From an uncultured Neomegalonema sp. (GTDB lineage Bacteria > Pseudomonadota > Alphaproteobacteria > Rhodobacterales > Rhodobacteraceae), in assembly GCA_937995735.1 (NCBI GenBank), contig CALKIZ010000067.1, forward strand, positions 1 to 42,179: a stretch of DNA of 42,179 nt, read 5' to 3'. The translations under genes were made by a program, and so were the position numbers. A model generated the notes under the pieces. The model searched no databases, was not told the DNA's origin, and worked only from the letters and a program-made list of their open reading frames with translations. Shown one piece after another: positions 3,946 to 38,900 of the stretch (position 1 is the stretch's first letter; each line of letters starts with the position of its first letter).

Positions 3946-4000
3946 TACCCCTTTCGCACATCGTCCTACGGTCTGCTTATGACGCGAGGAAGAAACGCCC

Positions 4001-6103: not shown

Positions 6104-6166
6104 CTTTACCGCCCCGCGATGACACTAACAGAGTGCTGTTGTCGCTCGACAGACGTAATGGGCGAG

Positions 6167-7943: not shown

Positions 7944-7949
7944 ATGAAA

Positions 7950-21322: not shown

Positions 21323-21426
21323 GGCTTCAATTTGCTGCACCGCAATATGCAGGGTGTTTGCCTAAATATCCAAATCCGTTTACTATCCGGAGATATAAAG
21401 GAACTTTACCCGCTAGGATTTTTTTC

Positions 21427-22260
21427 ATGAAGCGCGCTGCCTTTTTGACAATGATGTCTTTCGCACTTTTTTCCGGGCCAGCTTTGGCCGGGGAAGCATG
21501 GGATGAAATAAAGGCGGAGCTTTATGGTGAGCGTGTAATCCTTCCGGCAAAAGATATTGTCACTCTGACGACGCCCTATCGCGCGAAAGATGATCGTGAA
21601 GTCCCGATTGAAACGAGCACTCGTTTCTCTGACGGACGCACTGTTAAATCGGTTTCGATCATTATCGATGACAACCCAGCACCTGTTTCGGCTGTTTTCG
21701 AGCTTGAAACGCCGGAACAGAGTTTTGATGTCACCGCAAATATGCGCATCAATGGACCCACGCCCGTCCGCGTCGTCGTTGAGGCTAGCGATGGCGCGCT
21801 TTATATGACGGAAGAGTTTGTAAAAACGTCCGGCCTTGGCGCTTGTTCCGCGCCACCGATAAGCGGCATCAAAGAAGCCCTAGCCACCTTGGGTCAGATG
21901 GACCTTATCGCTAAACCACCAAAAGATGTTGAATCGCTGGTGGCGAACTTGACCGCAAACACAGCTTCTTCAACCAAGCCTGAGCCAAAAAACCTACGTC
22001 TGGAAATTAAGCACCCAAGCCATTCCGGGATGCAGATGGACCAGATATCACTGCTGTATATTCTCGCGCGCTATGTTGAAACCGTCGAAGTTTGGACGGA
22101 TCAAGACAAGCTGTTCACAATGACCGGCTCAATATCGCTAAGTGAAGACCCCGAGATTGAGTTCAGCTATACCACACCGGATGTGAAAGCCATTCGCGTG
22201 CGAATGACCGATACGGATGAAACCGTCTCTGAAGAGGTTTTCCCTATCGGGGAAAGCTAA
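21427..22260 (+). CDS. Quinoprotein dehydrogenase-associated SoxYZ-like carrier
   Basis: The 277-aa precursor has a signal peptide (about 1-21, ALA-GE), an N-terminal SoxY-like domain and a C-terminal SoxZ-like domain (about 185-277, with LRLEIKHPSHSGMQMDQ). In sulfur oxidation SoxY carries intermediates on a Cys near its end; here the junction segment SGLGACSAPP holds Cys140 in the equivalent position. The fused family is known beside PQQ dehydrogenases, with unknown substrate. I start at the ATG at 21427, which gives the signal peptide; the open frame upstream to 21358 does not look coding. It ends the methanol-related block. Confidence 0.85.
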   Translation: MKRAAFLTMMSFALFSGPALAGEAWDEIKAELYGERVILPAKDIVTLTTPYRAKDDREVPIETSTRFSDGRTVKSVSIIIDDNPAPVSAVFELETPEQSFDVTANMRINGPTPVRVVVEASDGALYMTEEFVKTSGLGACSAPPISGIKEALATLGQMDLIAKPPKDVESLVANLTANTASSTKPEPKNLRLEIKHPSHSGMQMDQISLLYILARYVETVEVWTDQDKLFTMTGSISLSEDPEIEFSYTTPDVKAIRVRMTDTDETVSEEVFPIGES

Positions 22261-22333: not shown

Positions 22334-23260
22334 TTAGCGTAAATCGAACCGCATCGGAGTCATTCCGGCCACGCTGCCGCCACGGGTTATTTGTCTCTCG
22401 GATAGAATAACAGAGCCATCATCCGCAAAGATTTCGACCATTTGCCACGCACCCGGTCTTTTATGCCCTCTTGCAGGATGTGTACTCAGAGAACCAATCC
22501 CGACGACCGGGATACGTTTTGTCTTGCCATCAATCCAAGAGAGTTCCCGTGCATGTGTATGGCCGTGCAGCACAAGAGCAACGCCATATTCGGCGAATAA
22601 TTCACAGACTTCCGGCCCATCGATCAGGCGTTTTCGTGAAGAGGTAATCTTTGTAGGAGGATGGTGCATCAAGACAATAGCCAACAATCCGTCCGCTCGC
22701 ACCTGACCTAATATTTGCGCGAGCAGCTCGCGTTGACTTTCTCCCACCTCACCAGATGCAAACCCCAACGGGGTCGGGATAGCAGTCGATACGGTGATCA
22801 AAGCGCAATTTCCAAATACACGAAGCACGGGGAATTGCTCTTTTTCTGACACTCCTTGAATGGCAGACCAATGGGTTCTCATGTAATCCATAGAGCGATG
22901 CGTCATGGCTTCATGATTACCGGGCAAGCAAAGTAAGGCTTCCGGCTTACAGAGCTTTTGTAGAAAACCTGCTCCGTTACGAAATTCCGCCTCCGATCCA
23001 AAATTGATCAGGTCGCCTGTCATCGTGATAAGATCAGGGCTGTGCTCTTTTACGTCTTCTAACAGCGTGGCCGCAATTTCCGGTCGATGAATCCGTCGCC
23101 GCCTTAGATACCAACTACAGGTACTAAGGGCCGCTTTAGCACTCCACTCTTTGCCACGGGGAAGGCCCATTGGCAGGTGAAGATCTGAAATATGAGCTAT
23201 GCGAAGGGGTCCGGTCACGCGGTGTCGTCGCAAATTTCGCGTTAGCTGTCCAGACGCCAC
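22334..23260 (-). CDS. Metallophosphoesterase (calcineurin-like)
   Basis: The 308-aa protein contains the full set of dimetal phosphoesterase motifs: ISDLHL (Asp26, His28), GDLIN (Asp83), GNHE (Asn115, His116), MHHPP (His199/His200) and GHTHA (about 233-237). Members hydrolyse phosphate esters such as cAMP or lipid intermediates; the overall pattern is closest to CpdA-like class III enzymes, but the substrate cannot be told from sequence. It has no signal peptide. The start is a GTG at 23258-23260. It is convergent with the SoxYZ-like gene and divergent from the HIT gene, so it is probably monocistronic. Confidence 0.88.
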   Translation of the reverse strand: MASGQLTRNLRRHRVTGPLRIAHISDLHLPMGLPRGKEWSAKAALSTCSWYLRRRRIHRPEIAATLLEDVKEHSPDLITMTGDLINFGSEAEFRNGAGFLQKLCKPEALLCLPGNHEAMTHRSMDYMRTHWSAIQGVSEKEQFPVLRVFGNCALITVSTAIPTPLGFASGEVGESQRELLAQILGQVRADGLLAIVLMHHPPTKITSSRKRLIDGPEVCELFAEYGVALVLHGHTHARELSWIDGKTKRIPVVGIGSLSTHPARGHKRPGAWQMVEIFADDGSVILSERQITRGGSVAGMTPMRFDLR

Positions 23261-23402
23261 TTAATATCAATATGGAATGAGAGCCTATCAGCACAGTATC
23301 TTGTGCTGTAACAGTCTGCGAGAATTTAAATGTGATCACGGCCCAAAGATTGGCATATTACAAGAGCTTTATGGCGCTCAATGCTTGAGGTAGGGTGACC
23401 CG

Positions 23403-23846
23403 ATGAATGCGACTTTTGAAAAATTCGGCTGGCCAAAAACCAAAATAGCCGAGCTAAAACACTGGGGCGTGATGCTACGCCCGGCGCAACCGACACTCGG
23501 CTCACTCGTCCTTGTTTGTAAGCAGGATGTGGATGCTTTCGGGGCGGTCGATACTGACGGAATGCAAGAGCTAGGCGAAGCAATCCATCATATTGAAGCG
23601 ATGCTGAAGCAAGCTGTGGACTATGAGAAAATCAACTATCTCATGTTGATGATGGTTGATCCTGACGTTCATTTTCATGTCATTCCCCGCCATGATGGTG
23701 TTCGCACGCTTTGCGGGTTTGACCGGGTTGATTCGGGCTGGCCGGGTCCTCCGAACCTTGGTGATGCACTCGCACTGGAAGCTCCTGATGTTGAACAGAT
23801 CGTCACAGCGTTGCGTAGTGTATGGAACGGGCCGGTTTCGGGGTGA
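23403..23846 (+). CDS. HIT-family hydrolase
   Basis: HIT proteins cleave nucleoside phosphoramidates or dinucleoside polyphosphates. The 147-aa product has the HIT signature as DVHFHVI (residues 88-94): the first His of the usual triad is Asp88, while His90 (the nucleophile position) and His92 are kept, so activity is likely. It is cytosolic. It opens an operon with LptF, LptG and the ceramide-synthase-like gene, overlapping lptF at the stop codon. Whether it has a role in lipid metabolism or is only co-transcribed is unknown. Confidence 0.88.
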   Translation: MNATFEKFGWPKTKIAELKHWGVMLRPAQPTLGSLVLVCKQDVDAFGAVDTDGMQELGEAIHHIEAMLKQAVDYEKINYLMLMMVDPDVHFHVIPRHDGVRTLCGFDRVDSGWPGPPNLGDALALEAPDVEQIVTALRSVWNGPVSG

Positions 23847-25006
23847 TCAACTTTCCCTGCAAGATCGACCGGTATTTATTGAAATTGATGTTTCCACGCC
23901 TAGTGGCGGTGTTGCTCATTGCATTGGCGGCATTGCTGGCAGAGCGTATGCTGCGCCTCTTCGATCTTATGATTACATATGGTTCCGAGGTAACACCCGT
24001 TTTGCGGATGGTTGGCTCGCTCGTACCACATTATCTCGGACTGGCTTTGCCGGTGGCTTTCTGTATTGCAGTACTGAGTGCCATGCGCCATCTGTCGCAA
24101 ACCAGCGAGGCCGTTGCCATGGGCAGTGCGGGCTGGTCTTTGCGCCGCATCGGGCTTCCTTTTTTGTTATGCGGCGTTTTGTTCTGTCTGTTGAGTCAGA
24201 TGCTTTTTGGCATCGTGCAACCTGCTTCTCGCTATGCCTATCAAACCATCCGCCATGAACTCATCAATGCGGGTTGGAATGGTCGTATCGAAGAAGGCTC
24301 TTTCTTCAAAGTCAAAGACGGCTTTTTAGTTTCCACCGCCGGCATTGACGACACAGGCCGTATCCTCGACGAAGTTTTCGTTCTGCGCGAAGGTAAAGAC
24401 GGCACGACCGTGATGACGGCAAAGGGCGGCGTTCTCGTCCCTGATGTTGAAAACAACCATGTCCGGCTCCAATTAAATAATGGAAGGCTTCTTCTGCCGG
24501 ATGGTAAGTTTTTTGATTTCGAGAAAACAAACGTAAAGCACGAATTCGAACTTCCCGAACCTTTTCGGTCCCGTGGCACAAGCGCGCGCGAGTTAACAAC
24601 ATTAGAATTGTGGCACGCCATGTCACATGAGACACAATCGGCTGATCCACAGTTCGCCGCCGAATTTCATAATCGCCTTATCCGTTCCGTATCTCTCATC
24701 GGTATAGCAATGATGGCGGTCCCGCTGGGTATGGCCAATGCGCGAAGTCCGGGATGGATGCCGTTGGCCGTTGCCGTGGCTGTTCTTGCTATCTTCGATA
24801 ATGCGATCAAATTTGTAGACGGGCTTGCTCAGACTGAGAGAATAGATCCGGCGCTGGGAATGTGGGGGCTGGCCTTTATATTCAACGCTGCCGGGTTATG
24901 GCTCTTTTTGACGACATCAAGCGCGTCTTGGGGACCCCTTGCAACACTCAGACGTTTCGTTCGGCGTTTAGTTGACGGACTGATCCCAAGGAAAGCACGC
25001 GAATGA
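23843..25006 (+). CDS. lptF: LptF/LptG-family permease, LptF-like
   Basis: LptF and LptG form the inner-membrane part of the ABC transporter that extracts lipopolysaccharide and feeds it to the Lpt bridge. This 387-aa protein begins IDRYLLKLMFPRL, has three membrane helices in the first 125 residues, a periplasmic beta-jellyroll domain (about 125-265) and three C-terminal helices. I choose the GTG at 23843, whose TGA overlap with the HIT stop is typical coupling; an ATG at 23822 is possible. Normally lptFG precede lptD; here they precede sphingolipid genes, so this pair may serve sphingolipid export. Confidence 0.88.
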   Translation: MINFPCKIDRYLLKLMFPRLVAVLLIALAALLAERMLRLFDLMITYGSEVTPVLRMVGSLVPHYLGLALPVAFCIAVLSAMRHLSQTSEAVAMGSAGWSLRRIGLPFLLCGVLFCLLSQMLFGIVQPASRYAYQTIRHELINAGWNGRIEEGSFFKVKDGFLVSTAGIDDTGRILDEVFVLREGKDGTTVMTAKGGVLVPDVENNHVRLQLNNGRLLLPDGKFFDFEKTNVKHEFELPEPFRSRGTSARELTTLELWHAMSHETQSADPQFAAEFHNRLIRSVSLIGIAMMAVPLGMANARSPGWMPLAVAVAVLAIFDNAIKFVDGLAQTERIDPALGMWGLAFIFNAAGLWLFLTTSSASWGPLATLRRFVRRLVDGLIPRKARE

Positions 25007-26064
25007 CGCTGCTTTTCTATGTGACGCGGGTGGTGGGGCTAAGAGTTTTAGCCGTCTGCCTTTGCCTCTTGATACTCGGGATCGGCGTTGACTTGATTAA
25101 AACTGCACCGGAGTTGCTTGAGTTCGGTGGTGGTCAGGCAGTAGCAAAATATGCAATTTTTCGCGTACCGGCTATGCTGGCAACGACACTCCCGATTGCG
25201 ACTTTGATCGGCGCTCTTCTCGCAATGCTGTCGCTCGGCCAAAACAGTGAGCTGGCTATTATCCGTGCCGCCGGAGTTTCTACACAGCGGCTTCTTTTAT
25301 GGCTCACCCCTCTCGCGTTGATCCTTGGCGGACTTCATTATCTGTCAGTCGATCGCGGCATCATTTGGAGCAACAACGCTTTGGGAGCAACATTCGGCAA
25401 GATTGCCGACGTAGATGTTCCCGAGATCGGCAGAGTGATTGCCGTGAGAGATGGCAACCGTATTCTTTATGGGAAACTGGCATCTCTCGACGGAGTAGAA
25501 TTAGCGCCTTTTGTTAGTTTCGCTCTCGATTCAGACGGCAATATCACACAGCGAACCAGCGCCGTAACTGCAGATTATGCCGATGGAGTTTGGACACTCG
25601 ATACTGTTGAACGTCTGACTGTTGGTGACGCGGAAGGCCAACCGATTAAGCTGCCACAATACGCATTGAAATCTGCATTAACGCCGGAACTTGTTCTTGA
25701 CCTTGCCAGTAAAGCAAAAGCAGTAGATTCCCGTCATGCTGCGGCGGTCCTTGCAAAGCAAGCAATTGCGACACGCGGCAAAGCTTATTATGCGATGCAG
25801 ATTAGCCGCAGCTATGCCGCTTGGGTTATTCCATTCGTCATGTTGCTCATCGGAATGCTCGGCAGTTACAAATTGCCCCGCAGTATGGAGGGCCTCGGTG
25901 CGGCTGGCCTCGGATTTGTGATTGGCATCTTTTATATTGGCACGGATGGATTATTCACATCACTAGGACAATTGGGTATTGTGCCGGTCGAATTCGCCGC
26001 TTACACGCCAAGTTTCAGTTTTGCCCTGATCGCAATTATTGCCCTGAGGCAATGGGAAAGTTAG
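25003..26064 (+). CDS. lptG: LptF/LptG-family permease, LptG-like
   Basis: The 353-aa partner of the preceding gene, overlapping it by four bases. It has the same plan: three membrane helices in the first 120 residues (including ATLPIATLIGALLAMLSLG), a periplasmic domain at about 120-265, and three C-terminal helices with WVIPFVMLLIGMLGSYKLPR. Together with LptF and an LptB ATPase encoded elsewhere it should form a lipid-extracting transporter. Six bases separate its stop from the ceramide-synthase-like gene. The substrate is inferred from the neighbours: lipopolysaccharide by family, possibly a sphingolipid by context. Confidence 0.88.
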   Translation: MTLLFYVTRVVGLRVLAVCLCLLILGIGVDLIKTAPELLEFGGGQAVAKYAIFRVPAMLATTLPIATLIGALLAMLSLGQNSELAIIRAAGVSTQRLLLWLTPLALILGGLHYLSVDRGIIWSNNALGATFGKIADVDVPEIGRVIAVRDGNRILYGKLASLDGVELAPFVSFALDSDGNITQRTSAVTADYADGVWTLDTVERLTVGDAEGQPIKLPQYALKSALTPELVLDLASKAKAVDSRHAAAVLAKQAIATRGKAYYAMQISRSYAAWVIPFVMLLIGMLGSYKLPRSMEGLGAAGLGFVIGIFYIGTDGLFTSLGQLGIVPVEFAAYTPSFSFALIAIIALRQWES

Positions 26065-26070
26065 AGCCTT

Positions 26071-27207
26071 ATGGCATCACAGGGTATCACTATCACCGAA
26101 GTCGCCGGACGCGGAGATATGACCAGATTTATCCGCCTGCCCGGAGAAATTTCTGGAGATGATCCAAATTGGATCGAGCAACTCCATTTCGAACGAAGGC
26201 GATTTCTAACACCGAAAACCAATCCCTTTTTTGATCATGCAGATGTCAAACTCTGGCTCGCAAAACAAGGCGATAAAATTGTCGGGCGGATCAGCGCACA
26301 GATCGACCACAACATGCCGCTTCATGAAGGAAGTAAAGTTGGTATGTTCGGAATGCTGGATGGGCAAGACGAAGACATCATCGCTGGATTGCTCGATACG
26401 GCAGAAAATTGGTTGCGCGCCCAAAGTGTGAAATGGATACGCGGTCCTTTCAGCTTATCGATCAACCATTCTTCCGGGGCTTTGGTCGATGGCTTCGACA
26501 CGCCGCCACAAATTATGATGGACCACAACGGGCCGCTGCTAGGCTCTGCGATAGAGCGTCATGGATATGTGAAAGCGCGTGATTTGCTCGCCTATCAACT
26601 CGATGTTTCAAACGGGCTGAGCGGTAAGATGCGCTCCTTGGCAACGCGCGAATATAAAGGGCTTGTTATCAGGCCATTAGAGCGAAAAAAGTTTGCTGAA
26701 GAAATCCGAACGATCATGGACATCTTCAACGATGCTTGGGGGGGAAATTGGGGATTTGTACCGCTGACCGAAGCAGAAACCGAGGCAATGGCAGAAGAAT
26801 TAAAACCTATTATCCCCGATGATTTTATTCAGATTGCCGAGATCGACGGAGAACCTGTTGGGTTCATTGTCTTGCTCCCCAATATCAACGAGGCGTTACG
26901 CGGATTGGATGGACGGCTGTTTCCTTTTGGGTGGGCGCGGTTGCTTTGGCGATTAAAAGTCAAAGGCGTACGCTCTGCTCGGGTTCCGCTAATGGGCGTG
27001 CGTCAAGCAACGACAGACACAATAATCGGTAAATTGATCCCTCTAAAATTAATTTACGCGCTTCAAGAACCTTCTATGTCACGCGGGATCGAAGAGCTAG
27101 AGATGAGTTGGTTGCTTGAAGAAAATATGTCCGTGCGACGGTTTGTCGAAAGCATCGGCAGCACCCTCTATAAAACTTACCGCATTTATGAAAAGCAACT
27201 GACATGA
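26071..27207 (+). CDS. bcerS: GNAT-fold acyltransferase, candidate bacterial ceramide synthase
   Basis: The 378-aa protein contains two GNAT-like halves: an N-terminal part with NPFFDHADVKLWLAKQGDKI and GPFSLSINHSSGALVDGFD, and a C-terminal part with IAEIDGEPVGFIVLLPNINE. Proteins of this group, often mislabelled as dATP pyrophosphohydrolase, include the Caulobacter ceramide synthase that N-acylates 3-ketosphinganine. The family and neighbourhood (SPT, ACP, SDR and acyl ligase within 10 kb) make that role likely here. It has no membrane segment. The stop overlaps the following nucleotidyltransferase start by four bases, so lipid backbone and head-group genes are coupled. Confidence 0.8.
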   Translation: MASQGITITEVAGRGDMTRFIRLPGEISGDDPNWIEQLHFERRRFLTPKTNPFFDHADVKLWLAKQGDKIVGRISAQIDHNMPLHEGSKVGMFGMLDGQDEDIIAGLLDTAENWLRAQSVKWIRGPFSLSINHSSGALVDGFDTPPQIMMDHNGPLLGSAIERHGYVKARDLLAYQLDVSNGLSGKMRSLATREYKGLVIRPLERKKFAEEIRTIMDIFNDAWGGNWGFVPLTEAETEAMAEELKPIIPDDFIQIAEIDGEPVGFIVLLPNINEALRGLDGRLFPFGWARLLWRLKVKGVRSARVPLMGVRQATTDTIIGKLIPLKLIYALQEPSMSRGIEELEMSWLLEENMSVRRFVESIGSTLYKTYRIYEKQLT

Positions 27208-27989
27208 ACTGGACCGCGCTGGTGCTAGCCGGATCACGTGGGGCCACAGATCCGGTCGCTCTCGCCGCTGGCACACAATATAAAGCATTCGCGGACATCA
27301 ACGGGCGTCCGATGATTTCTTATGTGATCGACAGCCTTAGAGCAGAGCCGCGAATTGGGCGTATTGTTGTCTCGATTGAAAAGGACGCTCCAAACTTACC
27401 GGAAGGCGTCGAAAGGATTACAGCGCTGGGCAGTCCTGCCTCTAGCGTACATTTTGCGTTGGAAGCCTTACCAACACCCGTGTTGGTAACAACCGCTGAT
27501 CATCCTCTTTTGACGCCTGATATGATCGCGACTTTCCTTGATGATGCCGAGCGTAATCCGGCAGAGGCATTAACCGCATTATGTCCTCGCGAGATTGCAG
27601 AGCAGGCGGGGAATCCGGCGCGGCGAACATATCTGCCGTTTCGGGATGGTCGAGCGAGCGGCACGAACCTTTTCGCTCTCAAGACACCCCGAACCTTAGC
27701 TGTGGTAGATCTTTGGCGGAAAATAGAAAAACTTCGGAAAAGTCCGATCCGCATGGCAATGACTTTGGAGCCAAGATTATTAATCCGCACGGCTTTGGGG
27801 CGTCTGCAACGCGCACACGCTGAGCAAGCTTTAGAACGCGCCACTGGGTGTCCTGTTGCTTTTACAGAATTGATGTATCCCGATGCCGCTCATGATGTTG
27901 ACACACCCGCTGACCTCAATTTCGTGGCACAGCGATTATTAGAACCCCAGCAATCCGCGCCGTTGAATCCTGGAGCAGTGCGCACATGA
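27204..27989 (+). CDS. MobA-like nucleotidyltransferase in sphingolipid operon
   Basis: The 261-aa protein has a Rossmann-like nucleotidyltransferase fold: VLAGSRG at 7-13 (a variant of the LAGGxG loop), Lys27 in the QYKAF segment, and TTADHPLLTPD with metal-binding Asp99. The C-terminal half has DAAHDVDTPADL, typical of MobA/IspD relatives, with the second metal-binding Asp. It activates some phosphorylated alcohol or sugar with CTP or GTP; the substrate is unknown. Coupling to the ceramide synthase and GMC genes suggests head-group activation, for example of phosphoglycerol, for a phospho-sphingolipid. That is inference. Confidence 0.8.
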   Translation: MNWTALVLAGSRGATDPVALAAGTQYKAFADINGRPMISYVIDSLRAEPRIGRIVVSIEKDAPNLPEGVERITALGSPASSVHFALEALPTPVLVTTADHPLLTPDMIATFLDDAERNPAEALTALCPREIAEQAGNPARRTYLPFRDGRASGTNLFALKTPRTLAVVDLWRKIEKLRKSPIRMAMTLEPRLLIRTALGRLQRAHAEQALERATGCPVAFTELMYPDAAHDVDTPADLNFVAQRLLEPQQSAPLNPGAVRT

Positions 27990-29593
27990 TTATTGATTTC
28001 AGAGAAACCGAAGAAGGCTACACTACGTCGGCAGATATTTGCATCGTCGGTACCGGCGTTGCAGGATTAACGCTTGCAAGAGAACTTTTGAAAACCGGAT
28101 TGAAAATCTGCCTTGTCGAAAGTGGCGGGGAGGATTTTGATCGAGATACCCAAGACCTCTATGATGGCGAAGTTACCGGACGAACTTATTCGCCGTTAAA
28201 AAAATCACGGCTGCGTTTTTTTGGTGGGACGACAGCGATATGGGGCGGACGATGCGTTCCACTGGACCCGATAGATTTTGAACCACGACCGGGGATTTGT
28301 GAGACAGGTTGGCCTTTTCGTATCGATGCCTTGTCAGAATATTACGCGAAAGCCAATGAGCATTTCGAATTGCCATTCGATGTGTATGACGAACGACTTT
28401 GGGAAAAAACTAACATTAACCCACCTGCTTTTGATCATGATCAAATACGGAGCGGTTTCTGGCAATTCGACGATAAATATTGGCGGTTCGGATTAGCCCA
28501 ATGTCGCGATCTCACCGAGCATCCACGGGTTGAAGTTTTACTCCATGCGAATGTCGTCAATATCGACACCAACGATAACACCCACAAAATCACCCAATTA
28601 AAAATCGCATCGCTCAACGGAAAAAGAGGGGCGATTAAAGCACGTAAATTCGTTTTAGCCTGTGGCGGCATCGAAAATGCGCGACTGTTGCTAGCGGCAG
28701 ATCAAATTAATCCACACGGTCTTGGTAACGATCACGATCAAGTCGGACGTTACTTTATGGAACATCCTCGTGCCCGCATTGGAACCTTGAAACTGCAAGA
28801 TCCGGTGTCGTTCTGGCTTACCTATCGCAAACATTTTTTACGCGGAGGCCATAAAGTCATTCCGGCATTACGCCTTGGCGAAAAGATTCAACGCGAAACC
28901 AGAGCACTGAATAGCGCGATGACAATAAAGTTTCAGGTATCGCCGGAAAAAGGAGTTACGTCATCAAAGGCACTGTATGACACAATCCTGAAAAACAGCT
29001 CTCCCAATCGATTTATGAGGCGCATTTGGCGGTATCAACGCCGAGCAACGGATTTCTTTAGTTCGCTCGGTGTGCGTGACTTGGCCAAGCGGCAAATGAA
29101 AGCCGGGAAAGGCGATCTCTACTTGATAGGGCGTGCTGAACAAGCACCCAACCCCGACAGTCGCATTATGCTTTCAAGCGAACGGGATGCACTTGGTATG
29201 CGTAAGTCTGTTCTTGATTGGCGATTGTTGCCAGTGGATACGCATAGTTTACGTGTGCTGGCGGATACTTTTGATGGTGAACTCAGACGAATCAACCTTG
29301 GCAGTGTTGAAAAAAGTAATTGGCTAGAGACGGATACAATTGACTGGCCGATTGATTCAACAATTGGTCGCCATCCTATTGGTGGTTATCATCACATGGG
29401 GACGACACGAATGGCTGACGATGCGAGACAAGGCGTCGTCGATGCACAATGCTGTGTACACGGGATGGATAATCTCTACATTGCCGGAAGTTCAGTATTC
29501 CCAACCAGCGGGTGGGCAAATCCAACGCTGACTATCGTTGCAATGACGTTGCGGTTGGCGGAGCATTTGACCGATAAAATGTCGACCACGTGA
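27986..29593 (+). CDS. GMC-family FAD oxidoreductase
   Basis: The 535-aa flavoenzyme has the dinucleotide-binding GTGVAG (Gly22, Gly24, Gly27), the acidic end of the second strand at VESGG, the CGGIENARLLL stretch typical of GMC enzymes, and the C-terminal HPIGGYHHMGTTRM (His463 onward) that carries the catalytic His pair, followed by GSSVFPTSGWANPTLT. Such enzymes oxidise alcohols of sugars, sterols or lipids. It lacks a signal peptide, so it is cytosolic. The ATGA overlap with the nucleotidyltransferase ties it to the sphingolipid operon, where oxidation of a lipid hydroxyl or a head-group is the obvious guess. Confidence 0.85.
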   Translation: MIIDFRETEEGYTTSADICIVGTGVAGLTLARELLKTGLKICLVESGGEDFDRDTQDLYDGEVTGRTYSPLKKSRLRFFGGTTAIWGGRCVPLDPIDFEPRPGICETGWPFRIDALSEYYAKANEHFELPFDVYDERLWEKTNINPPAFDHDQIRSGFWQFDDKYWRFGLAQCRDLTEHPRVEVLLHANVVNIDTNDNTHKITQLKIASLNGKRGAIKARKFVLACGGIENARLLLAADQINPHGLGNDHDQVGRYFMEHPRARIGTLKLQDPVSFWLTYRKHFLRGGHKVIPALRLGEKIQRETRALNSAMTIKFQVSPEKGVTSSKALYDTILKNSSPNRFMRRIWRYQRRATDFFSSLGVRDLAKRQMKAGKGDLYLIGRAEQAPNPDSRIMLSSERDALGMRKSVLDWRLLPVDTHSLRVLADTFDGELRRINLGSVEKSNWLETDTIDWPIDSTIGRHPIGGYHHMGTTRMADDARQGVVDAQCCVHGMDNLYIAGSSVFPTSGWANPTLTIVAMTLRLAEHLTDKMSTT

Positions 29594-29626
29594 GCGCCTT
29601 AACGCATCAAATTCGCGTAGAACATC

Positions 29627-30562
29627 TTACAGCCACCCGGCATCACGATACCAATCGAAGGTTTGCCGAAAACCCTCTTCAATTCTGATACGGGGTGCCC
29701 AGATATGCGACGGTAAAATTTCAGCAGATGCGATAGACCAGTTCTTGCACAATATCTCGTTGCATTTCGCTGAGGTCAGCATTGGCGCTTTGCCAAACCG
29801 TGCCTGTAAATCACCAAACCGACCACCAAGGCGCAGCACCGCCTCGGGTAGACGAACGATCCGAGCTTTACGTTTCCAACAATCCGCAGCGGTGGTTATG
29901 GTTTCTGACCAAGAATAACCTCCAAGATTACCATCACATAATTCGAAAACTTTGTTTTCTAAATCTGTTGGGTATTGGGTCACAGTAACCAGCGCATCGA
30001 CGACATCAAAGACGTGAACGAAGGTCAGTCGAGCGTCTGCCGAATTGAGTGAAACCTGCAATGGCCACCGCGTTGCTCCGAAAAGGCGCAACGTTTCGCG
30101 GTCTTTTGGCCCATAAATAGCGGTTGGACGAAAGACCACCGCTTTAGTCTCTTTAACGACTGCCTCAGCAGCAGCTTTCGACGCAGCATAATGAGACAAC
30201 TCGGGATGCCGCGCGGCGAGCGATGAGATCAGTACAAAACCGGCTTTAGGTGAATATTTTTTCCAAGCCGTAACCATCGACTCCGTACCATCACGATTGG
30301 CACGCATAAATGCATTTCTATTTGGCGCTTTGATAGCTCCGGCAAGATGGAAAATAAAGTCTGCCCCATCCGCCAGCTTTGCTAATGCCGTTTTATCATC
30401 AAGACTGCCGGGGATTACTGTGACAGGGCGCGGCCCTGCTTCTAACGTATTGCCACTCCGCATAAGGACACGAACATTATGCCCCAGTTCATTAAAGCAG
30501 CGCACCGCATGTTCGCCAAGAAAACCAGTTGCACCAGTGACCGCGATAGTTAGCGGCTTCAA
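29627..30562 (-). CDS. cerR: NAD(P)-dependent epimerase/dehydratase-type SDR, candidate ceramide reductase
   Basis: The 311-aa extended SDR has GATGFLG at 10-16 for NAD(P) binding and the catalytic Tyr125-x-x-x-Lys129 (YAASK), with Ser113/Ser114 in LISSLAA as the third residue. In Caulobacter a homologous SDR beside an acyl-ACP synthetase gene reduces the 3-keto group of the oxidised ceramide. The same adjacency is seen here: the acyl-AMP ligase ends four bases into this gene. The assignment to ceramide reduction rests on family and locus, not on a unique motif. It is cytosolic or membrane-peripheral. Confidence 0.75.
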   Translation of the reverse strand: MKPLTIAVTGATGFLGEHAVRCFNELGHNVRVLMRSGNTLEAGPRPVTVIPGSLDDKTALAKLADGADFIFHLAGAIKAPNRNAFMRANRDGTESMVTAWKKYSPKAGFVLISSLAARHPELSHYAASKAAAEAVVKETKAVVFRPTAIYGPKDRETLRLFGATRWPLQVSLNSADARLTFVHVFDVVDALVTVTQYPTDLENKVFELCDGNLGGYSWSETITTAADCWKRKARIVRLPEAVLRLGGRFGDLQARFGKAPMLTSAKCNEILCKNWSIASAEILPSHIWAPRIRIEEGFRQTFDWYRDAGWL

Positions 30563-32259
30563 TCGAAAGCTCCGGCCAGATAAATCTTCCGTGTTTCTGC
30601 ACGGCTGAGTTTTCCGGATGAAGTTCGAGGTAGTTGACCACGCCGGCCCAATACAACAATTGGTTCTAAGGCATTGTTGATCTTGACCGAACGTCGTACT
30701 TCTTCGCGCAAGGCTTCACGTTTGCTTTCATCTTGCTCACGGCATTCAGCAACAACGACAACATGCTCCTCCGAGCCTTGCCCAATATTGAAAGCTGCAA
30801 AACTGCCTTCGCGCATACGGTCCAGGAACACTTTTTCGAGATTCCATTCAATGTCCTGTGGCCAGATATTACGACCATTCAGGATAATAAGATCCTTATT
30901 GCGTCCGGTAATAACCAAGTCGCCAGCATCCGTGATAAAACCGCGATCGCCGGTATCGAGCCACCCATCTTCCGCCAAAGACTCCCGTGTTAAAGGGAGG
31001 TCATTGTAGTATTCACGCATCATACTCGGGCCATGAGCCATGATCCTCCCACATTGCCCGTTTTTGAGAATGTGTTCGTTAACATCGCGTATTTGCAGTT
31101 TATGGTTCGGTAGAGGTTTTCCACAAAGAACGAAAGTCGCTTTACCATGACCGTTAGCAGGGATCGCTTCGCCGGCCTCCAACGCTGTAGCGTCGAGGTC
31201 TACACTTGACCAGCCCGTGCCAAGTTTTGTGAAGGTCATACCGAGAGTCAGTTCCGCCATTCCATAACTGGGTAAGAAGCTACTTTCATTAAATCCATGC
31301 GGTGCATAAACTTCTGTAAAAGATTGCAGGTCCGAGGGTTTAATCGCGTCACCGCCTATCCCGGCCATCCGCCAGTGCGATAAGTCGAGGGGCTCCTTGA
31401 ACCGTGCTGCGCGCGCGGCAAGTTGGTATCCGAAAGATGGAGAGTAAGAGATTGTCCCTTTAGTATCACTTATTAATTTCAGCCAAAGTGCCGGACGGCG
31501 AACAAAATCATTCGTGGCCAAATAGGATACTGACAGCTGATTCGCTATCGGTAACATCATGTTTCCGACGAGGCCCATATCGTGATAAAATGGTAACCAA
31601 CTTACCCCGCGATCATTTTCGTTAACCTCTAATGCATGTGTAGACATTGCCTCGATATTAGCCATAAGCGCGCGGTGTGTAACAGCAATGCCTTTTGGAG
31701 CACTCGTTGTCCCGGAAGAGAACTGCAAATACGCAATCGACTCAGGGTCAACTGTGTTTTGAGCCAGCGGCGTGTCCACTAATGGCAATTCATCTAACGA
31801 ACCGAAATATCGCAGTTCGGTAACATCAATCTCTGCTCCTGCGACCTCCGCAAAGATTTCAGGTGAGATCAAGACCGAGATGCCCGCAACACGCGCGATG
31901 CGGGCAATTTGTTTCGCATAAACGGAGCGGTCCCCGAACGCTTTAGGCAATGGCATCGGGCAAGGGATTAGTCCTGCATAAAGAGTGCCGGTGAAGGCGA
32001 GGATGAAATCAGGACTTGTGTCCGCGATGATTCCAATCCGCGAACCTGGTGTAATCCCGGCGGCCAACAACCTAGCTGCTGTCACGCGGCATCCTTGGAT
32101 TAACTCGGCATAGGGAACAGCGTGCATTAATTGACCGCGAGGACCGTAGAAATCCATCCCACTGCGTGCGTTAGCAGCGTAGTCAAGTGCTTCAAGGAAG
32201 GTTTTAAAATTAGCTCGCCGCAGGGAAAGTCCACGATGAGTCGGGGTTTTCTTCAGCAT
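30559..32259 (-). CDS. Fatty acyl-AMP ligase / acyl-ACP synthetase
   Basis: The 566-aa protein is an AMP-forming ligase of the FAAL branch: the P-loop SSGTTSAPKG (181-190), VSWLPFYHDMGLVGNM, YGMAELTLG, WLDTGDRGF and the C-terminal LPRTSSGKLSR with the catalytic Lys near 554. FAAL-type enzymes transfer a fatty acid to an acyl carrier protein rather than to CoA. Here the ACP gene lies at 34971-35228, and Caulobacter needs such an enzyme for ceramide synthesis. The ATG lies inside the end of a small open frame on the same strand. The stop overlaps the SDR gene. Confidence 0.88.
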   Translation of the reverse strand: MLKKTPTHRGLSLRRANFKTFLEALDYAANARSGMDFYGPRGQLMHAVPYAELIQGCRVTAARLLAAGITPGSRIGIIADTSPDFILAFTGTLYAGLIPCPMPLPKAFGDRSVYAKQIARIARVAGISVLISPEIFAEVAGAEIDVTELRYFGSLDELPLVDTPLAQNTVDPESIAYLQFSSGTTSAPKGIAVTHRALMANIEAMSTHALEVNENDRGVSWLPFYHDMGLVGNMMLPIANQLSVSYLATNDFVRRPALWLKLISDTKGTISYSPSFGYQLAARAARFKEPLDLSHWRMAGIGGDAIKPSDLQSFTEVYAPHGFNESSFLPSYGMAELTLGMTFTKLGTGWSSVDLDATALEAGEAIPANGHGKATFVLCGKPLPNHKLQIRDVNEHILKNGQCGRIMAHGPSMMREYYNDLPLTRESLAEDGWLDTGDRGFITDAGDLVITGRNKDLIILNGRNIWPQDIEWNLEKVFLDRMREGSFAAFNIGQGSEEHVVVVAECREQDESKREALREEVRRSVKINNALEPIVVLGRRGQLPRTSSGKLSRAETRKIYLAGAFD

Positions 32260-32405
32260 CCGTGCTTCTGTCCGGCTCGTATTTTCAGTTGTTCGGAGAT
32301 CTCTCCGGCTTTTTCTAACAGCTTTTTAAATCCATCTGAATTGAGTTTAACGACATTATCGGTTTCAGGATAGTGCCGGATGTGATGTACGACGGTTATC
32401 TGATA
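32253..32405 (-). other. Protein-like 50-codon frame without a normal start codon
   Basis: Upstream of the acyl ligase, a stop-to-stop frame on the minus strand reads like a protein: HIRHYPETDNVVKLNSDGF, then KKLLEKAGEISEQLKIRAGQ. It ends in a TGA that overlaps the ligase ATG (ATGCTGA), the arrangement of a translationally coupled gene. Yet it contains no ATG, GTG or TTG. A frame beginning at ATG just upstream (MISDN) would join it after a one-base shift, so this may be a small gene with a frameshift, a sequencing error, or a very rare start codon. It may equally be chance. Confidence 0.35.
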
Positions 32406-32437
32406 TCATCAAGTAAACCGAGGAAGTGCTGATCGCC

Positions 32438-33742
32438 ATGACTGAAGCGCCCCATAAAGCGGAGCGAGAAAAATTATGGCAGCGTCTTCGAAGGAATATT
32501 TCGGTTATTCTCGGTGGCCGTGCAGTATTCGGCGTTGTCAATCTTATCGCCGCAGCGATTGCGGTACGCGCATGTGGCGTCGAAGCGTTCGGAATTGTGG
32601 CTCTACTGCAAGCGTATATTCGTGTTTTTGCTGGTTTATTACGATTTGATACCTGGGCGACAGTAACCCGCTATGGAGTACAAGCCACCAATTCTACGGC
32701 TGACTTGCAACGGCTGTTGGGTTTTACCTTGCGGCTTGACGCTATCGCCTTTTTTGCCTCCATTTTGCTTGCATCGCTTATCGCGCCTATTGCTGGGCGC
32801 ATCTTAGGTTGGCCCTCAGAAGTGATTACACTCGCACCATGGTATGCGCTGAATATTATTTTTATTACAGGAGCAACCGCGACGGGGTTCTTGCGGCTAT
32901 CAGACCGATTTTCTGTTCTTGCAAAACAACATGGAATCAATGCGTTGATTCGTCTTTGCGGAGCTATGCTTTTATTGGTTATTGGCGGCGGCGTACTCGA
33001 ATTGGCGCTCGTTTGGGGGATCGCCGGCTTGGTGTCCGGAATTTATATGATGTCTACGGCATGGCAGGAAGCACGGAGCCGCAATCTGTATCCGCGCTTT
33101 CGCGGGAGTTGGCGGGAACTTTCAACAGGATTTCCGAATATCTGGCGCTTTGTTTCAGTCACAAATGTCGAGGGTATGATCTCAACCGTCATGAACCATG
33201 GAGTCATCTTGATGGTAGGGGCAATTCTGGGCACGGGAGGAGCGAGCTTGTTCCAGATTGCCCGGCAATCAACTGACTTTATGCGTAAAACAAGCAATCT
33301 ACTCAGCCCTATTTTTTTTCCTGAAATCGCTAAAATGGAAGCAAAGGGAAAACGTCCAAAAATTCGAAAGCTGATTAGACGGACGCTTCAGATTTCTGTG
33401 TTGTGGCTTGCGGTTGTCACAATGCTTTTAATGATCGGGGCCGAGCCGTTCTTACGGTTTGTCTTTGGTCCGGAAACTGTTGAGGTGAAAGATGCAATGA
33501 TCCTTTGTGGTATTGCCGCTGCTCTTCATGCTTCCGGCTTTACATTTGAACCAGCATTGATGTCGATCAGTAAAGAAAGCGCATTATTGAAAACAACAAT
33601 TTTCGCAAGTGCGATTGCTATACCTTGTATTATCACAATGACTTATAGTTACGGTCTTATCGGTACGGGGTTAGGATTATTGTTATGGCGTAGTCTGATC
33701 TTTGCGAGCCGATTTATTATTCTTAGACGCGCGCTAAATTAA
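32438..33742 (+). CDS. Wzx-like lipopolysaccharide/polysaccharide flippase
   Basis: The 434-aa protein is almost wholly hydrophobic, with about 12 predicted membrane helices and an N-terminal GRAVFGVVNLIAAAIAVRAC segment typical of the MATE/MOP flippase superfamily. Members flip lipid-linked sugars or other amphiphiles across the inner membrane. The location between the acyl ligase and a LicC-like nucleotidyltransferase suggests a substrate linked to the sphingolipid pathway or a surface glycan. I use the ATG at 32438; a GTG at 32426 in the same frame sits too close to the AGGAAG site. It diverges from the ligase across about 180 bp. Confidence 0.82.
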   Translation: MTEAPHKAEREKLWQRLRRNISVILGGRAVFGVVNLIAAAIAVRACGVEAFGIVALLQAYIRVFAGLLRFDTWATVTRYGVQATNSTADLQRLLGFTLRLDAIAFFASILLASLIAPIAGRILGWPSEVITLAPWYALNIIFITGATATGFLRLSDRFSVLAKQHGINALIRLCGAMLLLVIGGGVLELALVWGIAGLVSGIYMMSTAWQEARSRNLYPRFRGSWRELSTGFPNIWRFVSVTNVEGMISTVMNHGVILMVGAILGTGGASLFQIARQSTDFMRKTSNLLSPIFFPEIAKMEAKGKRPKIRKLIRRTLQISVLWLAVVTMLLMIGAEPFLRFVFGPETVEVKDAMILCGIAAALHASGFTFEPALMSISKESALLKTTIFASAIAIPCIITMTYSYGLIGTGLGLLLWRSLIFASRFIILRRALN

Positions 33743-34054
33743 CAATACAGTCGGCGTAAAATTTCGAAATTCATACGACGACGCAACAAGGAACTGTATA
33801 TCGAAGACGGTGTTTTTATCTCTGATGCACAATGAGTACGACCTGAAAAATACCTTTTGATAGCATTCATAAATAATACAATTTTTATCACCTCTATCAT
33901 CGACTTAGCGAGCAAATTTGACTTTAGGTCCACCAGCAATAACCTGAGATTTAATATATGCGCTGTCAGCACTCATCTTGATTGATCAATCTCGGTAGAT
34001 ATGGTTTCTCTGACCTACTCTGCGATCTAGCATCCGAATGAAAGCGAAGTGACG
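33743..34054. other. AT-rich intergenic stretch, no gene seen
   Basis: About 310 bp separate the flippase from the LicC-like gene. I see no convincing open frame on either strand. A 12-bp perfect palindrome, GATTGATCAATC at 33980-33991, lies about 65 bases before the start of the LicC-like gene and could be an operator. No clear terminator follows the flippase. Confidence 0.5.
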
Positions 34055-34831
34055 ATGACGAATGCGGTGATCCTAAGCGCCGGTCAAGGCAAACGTCTTG
34101 CTCCATACACGGACAACCGACCTAAATGCCTTGTCCCGGTCAATGGAAAGCCGATTTTGGATTGGCAATTGCGAGCGTTAGCAGACGCCGGAATTGAAAA
34201 TGTAACGGTCGTTACGGGGTTCGGTGCGGACTCGGTCGATACTTTCGTAAATATCTGTGTCCCTGAGATCTCTGTGCAATGCGTGTTCAATCCATTCTAC
34301 GCAGTGTCCGATAATATTGGAACACTTTGGATAGCGCGGGATTTTCTAACGAATGATAGCTTGTTGATTAATGGAGATACGTTGCTCGATCCGCGTATTA
34401 TCCGAAAAGTATGCGATGAGGCGACGGCAGAGATTTCAGTCACGGTCGATCACAAAAACCAATACGATGCTGATGATATGAAAGTTCGCATCACCGATGG
34501 AAATCTGGTCTCCATTGGCAAAACGCTCGCTGAGCCTATCCATGGTGAGTCTATTGGTATGTTGCGATTTATCGACGAAGGTGCCGACTTACTTCGCAGC
34601 ACATTGGATACGATCATAAGAAAGCCGCACGGCTTAGATCTTTGGTATCTTTCAATTATTGATAAATTGGCACAACAGACCAAAGTTGGTACTGTCTCAA
34701 TCACGGGATTGCCTTGGGCTGAGATAGACTTTCCATCCGACTTGGCTGGGGCTTCTGATATCGTTCATCAGTTTAAATTTAAGGATTTGAATCGCATCGA
34801 AACAATTGCTGCTTTGGATATCGAGAAATGA
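34055..34831 (+). CDS. LicC-like nucleotidyltransferase
   Basis: The 258-aa protein has the sugar-phosphate/choline-phosphate nucleotidyltransferase pattern: LSAGQGKRLAPYT, then RPKCLVPVNGKPILDWQ, the NPFYAVSDNIGTLWIAR segment seen in LicC-type cytidylyltransferases, and LINGDTLLD with the metal-binding Asp. It activates a phosphorylated head-group alcohol with CTP. Position between flippase and ACP/SPT genes suggests it supplies a head-group for sphingolipids, as a glycerophosphate or choline-like cytidylyltransferase would. I choose ATG 34055; GTG 34049 is in frame. The substrate is not decided by sequence. Confidence 0.82.
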   Translation: MTNAVILSAGQGKRLAPYTDNRPKCLVPVNGKPILDWQLRALADAGIENVTVVTGFGADSVDTFVNICVPEISVQCVFNPFYAVSDNIGTLWIARDFLTNDSLLINGDTLLDPRIIRKVCDEATAEISVTVDHKNQYDADDMKVRITDGNLVSIGKTLAEPIHGESIGMLRFIDEGADLLRSTLDTIIRKPHGLDLWYLSIIDKLAQQTKVGTVSITGLPWAEIDFPSDLAGASDIVHQFKFKDLNRIETIAALDIEK

Positions 34832-34970
34832 TAAAATTGAGTTCGTGATTGTTATGCTCACACGCAAAGAGTTTACCAACATCAATGAGATTATCAAAAC
34901 ACCTTGAATTCGATATTCTCAATTCTTCAAATCCATTAGATAGACAGCCAGCAATATTTACCGAGGGAAT

Positions 34971-35228
34971 ATGGAAGATTCAGAAGTTAGAGGTAAAATA
35001 TATGCGTTAATTGAGAAGTACTCAAAATCAGATAAAGAAATAAAGCCAGACTTTGATATTTTAGCTGACACAGGACTAGACTCGGTTTCAGTCATGGACA
35101 TCGTCATGGAACTCGAAGATGATCTCGACACCATGATTTCAATTGAGCAGCTGTCAAACGTGCGAACGGTCAGTGATTTTGAGGCAGTCATTTTCGACAT
35201 TTTGAACAACGGATCCCGAGACAGGTGA
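34971..35228 (+). CDS. Acyl carrier protein, dedicated to sphingolipid synthesis
   Basis: The 85-aa protein is an acidic four-helix ACP with the phosphopantetheine site at Ser38 in GLDSVSVMD and the usual acidic helix (MELEDDLDTMI) after it. It is unlike the housekeeping AcpP, whose motif is DSLD. GAGGGAAT lies directly before the ATG. The serine palmitoyltransferase-like gene starts 10 bases after its stop, a pairing found in Caulobacter, where a specialised ACP delivers the acyl group for 3-ketosphinganine formation. It would be charged by the FAAL-type ligase encoded at 30559-32259. Confidence 0.9.
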   Translation: MEDSEVRGKIYALIEKYSKSDKEIKPDFDILADTGLDSVSVMDIVMELEDDLDTMISIEQLSNVRTVSDFEAVIFDILNNGSRDR

Positions 35229-35238
35229 GTTAAACTAC

Positions 35239-36477
35239 GTGGGCATTAAAGAACGAATTCAGACAGCAGAGAGTAACTTTGGTTACCTCAGGCAACTTGG
35301 TCGCGACCCCAGCGCCCTGGAATTCGAAGAAATTATCACACCGACACAAGCCAAACTCGATGGCGCAAATGTCGTTTTATTCGGGACCAATAATTATCTC
35401 GGATTGACATTTCATCAGAGCTGCATTCAAGCGGCCACGATAGCCAGTCGGGTGCAAGGAGCCGGAACCACAGGCTCTCGCATGGCGAATGGCAGTTACT
35501 CGTCACACCGCAACCTCGAAAAAGAAATTGCAGCGTTTCACGATAAGCGAGAAGCGATCATATTCTCAACGGGGTATCTTGCAAATGTCGGTATGATTTC
35601 AGCGCTCGCCGGAGCTGGAGATCATTTGCTGATCGACGCCGACAGTCATGCTTCGATTTATGATGGATGCAAGATGAGCGATGCGGAGACCTTACGGTTT
35701 CGACATAATTCTCCTGAAAGCCTCGCTCGTCGTCTAAAGCACCTGTCTGGATCTCCCGGTGATAAAATCGTCATCGTTGAAGGCATATATTCGATGCTTG
35801 GCGATAAGGCTCCTCTTAAGGAAATTGCGGCCATCGTTCGCGAAGCGGGTGACAAAGTTTATCTCATGATTGACGAAGCACATTCGTTGGGTGTGCTCGG
35901 TCATAATGGGCGCGGTTTGTGCGAACAAGACGGTGTTGAGCAAGACTGCGACTTTGTGACTGGAACGTTCTCCAAAACAGTTGGAACAACGGGTGGGTAT
36001 TGCGTCTCTGACCATGAATGGTTCAACGGACTCCGGGTTCTGTCACGTCCGTATATCTTTACGGCGTCGATGACACCGAGCGCTGTTGAAACGGCACGTG
36101 CAGCATTCAAGATTGTAGCATCTTCAGAAGGGCGTGCTCTTAAAACCAAACTTCAGCGTAATTTTCATCGTGTATTCGAAGGTGTACAAGCATTGGGCTT
36201 TGAAACCGGGCCGGAACCAGGACCGGTTGTCGCGGTGCGACTGCCTGACCCTGAAATCGCAATTCGCTTTTGGAACCGCACAATCGACGAAGGCCTCTAC
36301 ACAAACATTGCCATTCCACCAGCAACACCCGATGGGCTTTCTCTGTTGCGGGTTTCGGTATCCGCCGCCCACTCGGAGGAAGAAATTGCGCGGGCCTTGT
36401 CCATATTGGCATATATAGGCGTAGAGTTTGGTCTTATTCCCAGTGCCAAAAAATATGCGGCGGCAGTAGGCTCTTGA
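35239..36477 (+). CDS. spt: Alpha-oxoamine synthase, probable serine palmitoyltransferase
   Basis: The 412-aa PLP enzyme condenses an amino acid with an acyl thioester. It has the alpha-oxoamine synthase motifs NYLGLTFH, GTTGSRMANGSYSSH, HASIYDG, MIDEAHSLG and the PLP Lys246 in GTFSKTVGTTGG. The family also holds KBL and AONS; the adjacent ACP and the ceramide-type neighbours favour serine palmitoyltransferase, the first committed step of sphingolipid synthesis. The start is a GTG at 35239 with AGGTGAG nine bases upstream. It is cytosolic. A palindrome at 36505-36528 follows as probable terminator. Confidence 0.85.
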   Translation: MGIKERIQTAESNFGYLRQLGRDPSALEFEEIITPTQAKLDGANVVLFGTNNYLGLTFHQSCIQAATIASRVQGAGTTGSRMANGSYSSHRNLEKEIAAFHDKREAIIFSTGYLANVGMISALAGAGDHLLIDADSHASIYDGCKMSDAETLRFRHNSPESLARRLKHLSGSPGDKIVIVEGIYSMLGDKAPLKEIAAIVREAGDKVYLMIDEAHSLGVLGHNGRGLCEQDGVEQDCDFVTGTFSKTVGTTGGYCVSDHEWFNGLRVLSRPYIFTASMTPSAVETARAAFKIVASSEGRALKTKLQRNFHRVFEGVQALGFETGPEPGPVVAVRLPDPEIAIRFWNRTIDEGLYTNIAIPPATPDGLSLLRVSVSAAHSEEEIARALSILAYIGVEFGLIPSAKKYAAAVGS

Positions 36478-37063: not shown

Positions 37064-37681
37064 ATGAGTGCTGTTGCAGATCTATCCAGGGAAATTGCTT
37101 GTGGCTTCAAGCCGGTATGCGGTGTGGATGAAGTGGGGCGCGGTCCATGGGCAGGACCGATTGTGGCCGGAGCTGCGATCCTACCGGAAGACCATAGCAT
37201 CGACGGAATCGCGGATTCTAAAGCCCTTTCCAAACCTAAGCGTGAGCGTATTGCCGCTTTGCTTCATGAACAGGCTGACATTGGACTCGGTATTGTCGCA
37301 GTGACCGAATTGGACGAAATCGGTCTGACAGCCGCGAATGATCTTGCCATGGTCCGCGCCGTTCAAAACCTGCAGGAACGCCCAACCTATGCGCTTATTG
37401 ACGGTAAACGCACACCCAAAGGTCTGAGCTGTCCATGCGAGGCGATCATTAAGGGCGATGCGACGTCACTGTCGATTGCAGCGGCATCTATTGTGGCAAA
37501 AGTCCATCGTGATCAGATCATGACGCGCCTTGCAGAGAATTTTCCTCATTACGGTTGGGAGACGAATGCGGGGTATGGAACAGCAGCCCATCGCGCGAGC
37601 CTGAAAAGCCATGGTGTGACCCCACATCACCGTCGTTCGTTCAAACCGATAGCCGAGATTTTACTTAAAGAACAACGTATA

Positions 37682-37690
<9 letters not shown>
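37064..37690 (+). CDS. rnhB: Ribonuclease HII
   Basis: RNase HII nicks RNA-DNA hybrids and starts ribonucleotide excision repair. The 208-aa protein has the signature VDEVGRGPWAGP (Asp22, Glu23), the IADSKALS segment, LIDGKRTP with a catalytic Asp, and AAASIVAKVHRDQ. The length is normal for the family. GGAAAAG lies eight bases before the ATG. rnhB directly ahead of ccrM is the usual order in Caulobacterales and many other alphaproteobacteria, and here 37 bases separate them. Confidence 0.95.

Positions 37691-38900
<1,210 letters not shown>

Follow-up and report, generated by a model that had tools for sequence, protein, structure and literature searches.

The stretch analysed here (hereafter the window) is the entire contig C67, of 42,179 bases, from the genome of an uncultured Neomegalonema sp. 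(3.69 Mb, 99.5% complete). Its positions 22334–36477 carry a locus which, judging from the families of its genes, is very probably a sphingolipid locus of the Caulobacter kind, i.e. of the ceramide phosphoglycerate (CPG) type. The system is real, nearly complete-looking and of a known kind, and it is partly dispersed, homologues of three further head-group genes being found on another contig, C96.

A metallophosphoesterase gene is found on the minus strand (22334..23260; Pfam Metallophos, 1.1e-18). A single run of six plus-strand genes follows, encoding a HIT-like protein (23403..23846; Pfam HIT, 21.4 bits, marginally below the cut-off of 21.5), an LptF2-type permease (23822..25006; LptF_LptG, 6.9e-60), an LptG2-type permease (25003..26064; LptF_LptG, 4.5e-43), a CerS/bCerS-type N-acyltransferase of tandem GNAT organisation, the putative ceramide synthase (26071..27207; GNAT, 21.7 bits, cut-off 20.7), a MobA-like nucleotidyltransferase that is a candidate counterpart of CC_1153 (NT1, 27204..27989; NTP_transf_3, 6e-14) and a GMC-family FAD oxidoreductase (27986..29593; GMC_oxred_C, 3.2e-22). 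Two minus-strand genes encode a CerR-type NAD-dependent reductase, an epimerase-like SDR (29627..30562; Epimerase, 2.5e-22), and an AasR-type fatty acyl-AMP/acyl-ACP ligase, or FAAL (30559..32259; NCBIfam fatty acyl-AMP ligase, 660.6 bits, cut-off 600). The remaining genes, all on the plus strand, encode a MATE/Wzx-like flippase candidate of CC_1166 type (32426..33742; MurJ, 0.00022, and WZX_like, 4.5e-8, both below cut-off), a second nucleotidyltransferase with CpgD-fitting residues, predicted to be a CpgD-type CTP:phosphoglycerate cytidylyltransferase (NT2, 34049..34831), an AcpR-type acyl carrier protein (ACP; 34971..35228; GLDS motif, Ser38; PP-binding, 9.7e-9) and a predicted serine palmitoyltransferase (SPT, gene spt; 35239..36477; NCBIfam SerpalmtaseBetaP, 569.7 bits, cut-off 500).

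In the six-gene run, consecutive genes overlap by 25, 4, 4 and 4 bp and are separated by a single 6-bp gap, the GMC start overlapping the NT1 stop by 4 bp; the SDR and FAAL genes also overlap by 4 bp, and the ACP gene lies upstream of spt at a spacing of 10 bp. This packing is not due to chance, because the overlaps and gaps are tight and other alphaproteobacteria also carry these genes near spt. Family scans of the window proteins recover, each in its place, all the genes named in a first-pass annotation of the same DNA; its list, however, overlooked the metallophosphoesterase gene, which is recurrent in Spt loci. Recurrence was assessed in 33 other Spt stretches: of the 48 further Spt-positive genomes in a class sample, 30 are covered, and 3 stretches come from the 11 loci of an Spt scan (8 Bacteroidota-type loci were left out, and L009, which is included, spans 6 kb only). 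Many of these stretches are cut short, either at 20 kb or by the end of their contig.

The full ceramide set (aasR, cerR, acpR, spt and cerS) is found in the window, within 26071–36477, i.e. in 10.4 kb, which agrees with the 11 kb given by the first-pass annotation. The function of AcpR, AasR and SPT is known in E. coli B and Caulobacter (PMC9386255). The window proteins are related to those of E. coli BL21, with identities of 48% for Spt, 49% for YghO/CerS (374 aa), 39% for the FAAL, 37% for the SDR and 37% for the ACP, and homologues of AcpR, AasR, CerR and CerS are present in 32, 29, 28 and 18 of the 33 stretches, respectively. By family, the SPT-like enzyme is a serine palmitoyltransferase, for which condensation with serine is predicted. 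A CerS model, built from a three-sequence alignment and with a mean pLDDT of just 68.3, matches tandem GNAT N-acyltransferases. The CerR N-terminus is a Rossmann-type start, MKPLTIAVTGATGFLG, without a visible signal peptide, whereas Caulobacter CerR is described as periplasmic (PMC11087976).

The CC_1152–CC_1168 locus of Caulobacter crescentus makes ceramide and ceramide (di)phosphoglycerate; it is described as containing five ceramide genes, second copies of Lpt genes (LptC2/F2/G2), a flippase and six head-group genes, CC_1161, 1160, 1159, 1158, 1153 and 1152 (PMC11324152). AasR, CerR, AcpR, Spt, CerS, two nucleotidyltransferases, a phosphoesterase, LptF2/LptG2 and a flippase are common to this locus and to the window, which holds putative counterparts of CC_1152 and CC_1153. 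Unlike in Caulobacter, the homologues of CpgB, CpgC and CpgA have a separate contig as their location, no LptC2 is seen, the GMC oxidoreductase is extra in the window and a hydroxylase is extra beside the Cpg genes of C96. The metallophosphoesterase and the HIT protein stand in the places of CC_1158 and CC_1157, their orthology being a guess from position; homologues of the HIT-like protein are found in 7 of the 33 stretches.

Among named organisms, the twin of this locus is found on plasmid p546-2 of Roseomonas haemaphysalidis (L152), where flippase-like, AcpR, Spt, phosphoesterase, HIT, LptF, LptG, CerS, NT1, NT2, AasR and CerR proteins all match those of the window. Identities to the p546-2 copies are 52% for the HIT-like protein (to a HIT family protein), 51% for NT2, 48% for NT1 (whose p546-2 copy adjoins cerS), 47% for both the AasR-type ligase and CerS, 34% for the metallophosphoesterase and 32% for the flippase-like protein (to a protein beside acpR). 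Unlike the window, the p546-2 locus has CpgC/B/A and a DUF2141 gene, and no GMC gene is annotated in its stretch. The yghO-spt locus of E. coli BL21 (L148) shares the five ceramide genes with the window, together with proteins annotated as LptF/LptG and a flippase-like one; the latter, annotated as 'lipopolysaccharide biosynthesis protein', is 26% identical to ours. Unlike in the window, no NT1, NT2 or CpgA/B/C homologue is detected in its 22-kb stretch.

As to the head group, the best PDB relative of NT2 is a CTP:phosphocholine cytidylyltransferase (1.1e-15). Caulobacter CpgD makes CDP-glycerate; R16, K26 and D112 are named in one report (PMC12275187), and R16, T93, N90, N110, S170 and W201 are assigned from crystal structures in a preprint (PMC13228409). 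All eight of these active-site residues (R16, K26, N90, T93, N110, D112, S170, W201) are matched in NT2, by R16, K26, N89, T92, N108, D110, S168 and W199, with an offset going from 0 to -2, the match being by motif and spacing and not by alignment to the CpgD sequence. In particular, NT2 carries the Asn used by CpgD for glycerate, where LicC has Asp, and a CpgD-like activity is predicted for it. The sole PDB relative of NT1 is TTHA0179 (8.4e-19).

The other predicted head-group genes are carried by contig C96 (L087), where positions 3782–8945 encode, all on the minus strand, a CpgC homologue (3782–4639), an OlsC/LpxO-like hydroxylase, a CpgB homologue, the putative ceramide kinase (5507–6529), a CpgA homologue of the CDP-alcohol phosphotransferase family (6430–7533) and a cyclopropane-fatty-acid synthase-like protein. 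CpgC is assigned by clustering with genes beside spt elsewhere, and CpgB and CpgA by clustering and Pfam; the identities of CpgB, CpgC and CpgA to Roseomonas haemaphysalidis genes are 31, 41 and 47%, and their homologues are found in 17, 21 and 10 of the 33 stretches, respectively. Seen from the window only, the organism would lack CpgABC, a view that contig C96 overturns: counterparts of CpgB, CpgC, CpgA, CpgD and CC_1153 are all in the genome, by homology to loci elsewhere and not by Caulobacter alignment. The cyclopropane-synthase-like gene beside CpgA was also considered as a pathway gene and is unsupported as such, having no match on the contig carrying AspH-CpgB-CpgA in G007, another genome of the genus (68% complete). 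C96 also carries a GT2 glycosyltransferase gene at 1066–2061.

CpgC of C96 has no Pfam or NCBIfam match, and its profile retrieves from the PDB just a weak nucleotidyltransferase domain (0.0099). A relative from L010 was modelled from a three-sequence alignment (pLDDT 81.7), and the best fold match of this model is the CDP-diacylglycerol (CDP-DAG) synthase Tam41 with CTP (7ecd, 3.9e-7; 6ig2, 3.7e-6). A CDP-DAG synthase-like domain has already been noted in CC_1161 (PMC11324152). CpgC thus probably activates ceramide-1-phosphate with CTP, if this model is a guide. Metallophosphoesterase homologues are present in 17 of the 33 stretches, and the window copy is 49% identical to that located between cerR and NT2 in L009. 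It is a candidate for the phosphoesterase step, to which the CC_1158 phosphoesterase is reported to contribute without being essential in Caulobacter (PMC11324152); its equivalence to CC_1158 is uncertain.

Concerning export, the window proteins are not the only LptF/LptG pair of the genome, as one might have supposed, since another pair is found on contig C109. LpxC is also found, and with LpxC and the C109 pair the genome should therefore make lipopolysaccharide (LPS). LptF2 and LptG2 homologues occur in 20 and 19 of the 33 stretches, and a simple hydropathy count gives 9 hydrophobic segments for the flippase-like protein. LptF2/G2 and the flippase have been proposed, for Caulobacter, to transport sphingolipids (PMC11324152), a function that they may also have here; according to another report, the sphingolipid transporter is not yet identified (PMC11087976).

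The distribution of the system is patchy. Among the relatives with a name, the Spt scan places closest a metagenome-assembled genome labelled uncultured Neomegalonema sp. (L009; Spt 79% identical). Of 14 genomes of the genus, several of which are incomplete, 2 have Spt (E<=1e-60), namely the source genome and G007, and CpgB (E<=1e-8) is found in the same two; at 1e-60, none of 23 same-family genomes of other genera has Spt. In the class sample, Spt is present in 49/385 genomes at 1e-75. Such a distribution suggests gain or repeated loss.

We favour a locus of the ceramide phosphoglycerate type because the family scores, the relationship to the five-gene set of BL21 and the Roseomonas twin locus agree, because CpgC/B/A homologues are on C96 and, within the genus, CpgB is found in the genomes that have Spt, and because NT2 has the CpgD residues, the CpgC relative has a Tam41 fold match and the genome has LpxC and a second LptFG pair. 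The gene set, the family memberships, the conservation and this second pair can be read directly from the DNA. Several points weigh the other way. The CpgB/C/A genes are outside the window and do not cluster with spt; even if C67 and C96 were joined in the arrangement that brings them closest, ~9.5 kb would separate spt from the Cpg genes. Homologues are recognisable in few stretches for NT2 (5 of 33, 4 of them at E<=1e-15), NT1 (9 of 33) and the flippase (5 of 33), although many stretches are cut short. The Tam41 match of the L010 relative is distant (TM ~0.5) and is followed by aminoglycoside nucleotidyltransferases (3.7e-6 and weaker, TM ~0.3). LptC2 is not seen in the genome, the sole LptC match being weak (21.8 bits). 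The metallophosphoesterase may not equal CC_1158, because it is common in Spt loci whereas six other genera are reported to be without a CC_1158 orthologue (PMC11324152). Finally, the link to Caulobacter is drawn through published descriptions and the BL21 and Roseomonas comparisons, and not through direct alignment to Caulobacter proteins. The first-pass proposal of synthesis, head-group addition and export stands as the best reading of the gene set, except that three head-group genes are not at this locus but on C96.

Other readings of the locus can be weighed against the same data. The lipid could be a ceramide with another head group, e.g. an oxidised polyol or a phosphosugar, in which case NT1, NT2 and GMC would make up an activated-precursor branch of their own. 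The location of CpgA/B/C on another contig, the sugar dehydrogenases that are the best solved relatives of GMC and the several substrates of the NT2 family would fit this, but we consider it unlikely, given that CpgA/B/C homologues are in the genome, with CpgB following Spt in the genus, and that NT2 has the glycerate Asn of CpgD and not the Asp of LicC. That the window LptF/LptG is an ordinary LPS exporter, close to sphingolipid genes by chance, is suggested by LptF/LptG-like scores, yet appears highly improbable in view of the other pair on C109, of scores that, for both window proteins, do not reach the LptF and LptG cut-offs of NCBIfam and of their recurrence in more than half of the Spt stretches. 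It is scarcely credible that the SPT-like enzyme is a KBL, an AONS or another alpha-oxoamine synthase, the locus serving something else; a KBL or AONS identity is among the findings that the first-pass annotation had itself named as able to overturn its proposal. These enzymes belong to the same superfamily and their models also match, but only the SPT model passes its cut-off among the models listed (bioF, 313 for 426.45; KBL, 270.8 for 460 and 259.4 for 493). The ten best PDB matches are all SPTs (best 3.3e-111) and the four SPT partner genes are in the locus, so that, by the curated cut-offs, a KBL or AONS identity is ruled out.

The same weighing is less decisive for the GMC oxidoreductase, the one gene named by the first-pass annotation that is outside the known locus, the other contents matching the gene set described in Caulobacter. 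Whether it is a passenger unrelated to the lipid appears to us evenly balanced. No homologue is called in any of the 33 other Spt stretches (E<=1e-10, the threshold of the GMC count), so that the idea of GMC being a regular component of sphingolipid loci is rejected; likewise, at 1e-30, the other 13 genomes of the genus have none, including the Spt-bearing but incomplete G007. The neighbours of GMC relatives are varied and none is shared in the few contexts covered, which are 4 of 45 plasmid records and 10 neighbours from 6 of 13 GMC stretches; these 10 are an AMP ligase, a TonB receptor, a GNAT protein, polysaccharide export and chain-length genes, a methyltransferase, a polysaccharide flippase and three without family. 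On the other hand, GMC closes the six-gene run by its four-base overlap with NT1, its FAD motif (GTGVAG at 22) and GMC-type C-terminus are present, and Spt is present in 17 of the 38 class genomes with a GMC relative, versus 49/385 overall, genome size and ancestry being uncontrolled in this comparison. Its nearest solved relatives are glucose and fructose dehydrogenases and it has no hydrophobic segment by a simple count; a role in oxidising the head group, or a precursor of it, is a guess.

If the locus is of the ceramide phosphoglycerate type, as we favour, its products could act as follows. AasR would load a fatty acid onto AcpR, and Spt would condense acyl-AcpR with serine into 3-oxo-sphinganine, which CerS would N-acylate before reduction by CerR, yielding dihydroceramide. 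CpgB would then make ceramide-1-phosphate, which CpgC, with its Tam41-like fold, would probably activate with CTP, while NT2 would make CDP-glycerate; CpgA, NT1 and perhaps the phosphoesterase would build the phosphoglycerate head group, and the flippase and LptF2/LptG2 would move the lipid towards the outer membrane. Published work on Caulobacter or E. coli B demonstrates the Spt, AcpR and AasR activities, the ceramide kinase and CpgD; for this organism we infer every activity, and likewise the CDP-ceramide step, the transport of the lipid and what GMC and the C96 hydroxylase do.

This hydroxylase, encoded between CpgC and CpgB, belongs to the Asp/Asn beta-hydroxylase family (1.5e-50). It is closest to OlsC and is below the NCBIfam equivalog cut-offs (OlsC, 211.8 for 450; LpxO, 107.8 for 500); by these scores, it is a relative and not a member of OlsC/LpxO. 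G007 has it at 88% identity, beside CpgB and CpgA. Relatives at 1e-30 are found in 19/385 class genomes, 15 of which have Spt; with the source genome excluded, 14 of 18 do (hypergeometric 8e-11, the genomes not being independent), and the 7 strongest relatives outside the source genome (<1e-60) are all in Spt-bearing genomes. Its context was examined in 10 of the 14 other Spt-positive carriers (all but G102, G307, G316 and G394) and in 2 genomes without Spt. In G238 it is only 130 bp away from spt; in G241, aasR is at a distance of 2 kb, and in G159, LptF2 at ~7 kb. In the stretches of G131, G263, G231, G199, G181 and G194, some of which end at contig ends, no ceramide or Cpg gene is nearby, and G116 has two partial copies at contig ends with no such gene alongside. 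None of the 33 Spt stretches contains an OlsC/LpxO-like hydroxylase, and 15 contain another one, HydC2, which has no match in the source genome, in a search of low weight as a negative. The C96 enzyme as a general replacement of HydC2 is however rejected, as G241 carries both.

In Caulobacter, sphingolipid hydroxylation is attributed to CC_0202, of the DesA family (PMC11324152), and other routes to hydroxylated sphingolipids are described, Sphingomonas using P450s and myxobacteria using FA2H-like enzymes (PMC10002949). The C96 enzyme could hydroxylate the amide-linked acyl chain; alternatively, it may have an OlsC or LpxO role, on ornithine lipid or lipid A. None of the literature matches listed links, by its title or the start of its abstract, the OlsC/LpxO-type family to sphingolipids, and none of those listed for acetic acid bacteria and ceramide assigns such a hydroxylase. 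A gene of this kind may already have been studied in acetic acid bacteria, and we claim no priority. One further idea, rather doubtful as a whole, is that two tailoring steps are new to the CPG pathway, the hydroxylase being a dedicated sphingolipid acyl hydroxylase in several alphaproteobacterial lineages and GMC oxidising the head group or its precursor to give an unseen head group.

Upstream of the locus, a single fused protein carries SoxY and SoxZ domains (21358–22260); downstream of spt, 37064–38900 encodes RNase HII and then an N6/N4 DNA methylase with a RAMA domain, which we take from its architecture to be CcrM-type. Elsewhere in the window are found a bacterial small SRP RNA (3850–3947; 53.2 bits, gathering 40) adjoining the DnaX gene (4001–5752), a run of MoxR-type AAA ATPase, VWA and TPR proteins (10218–18511) near beta-propeller proteins, among which a PQQ-propeller protein (16712–18511), and a protein combining an N-terminal helix-turn-helix with many TPR repeats (40432–41925).

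These results place a predicted and nearly complete sphingolipid pathway, whose genes are divided between two contigs, in a genus with Spt in only 2 of the 14 genomes. They bring comparative support on the chemistry of CpgC, its Tam41-like fold being suggestive of an activation of ceramide-1-phosphate by CTP, and on which genes move sphingolipids. Finally, the association of the hydroxylase with Spt makes it a candidate bacterial ceramide hydroxylase, which is directly testable.

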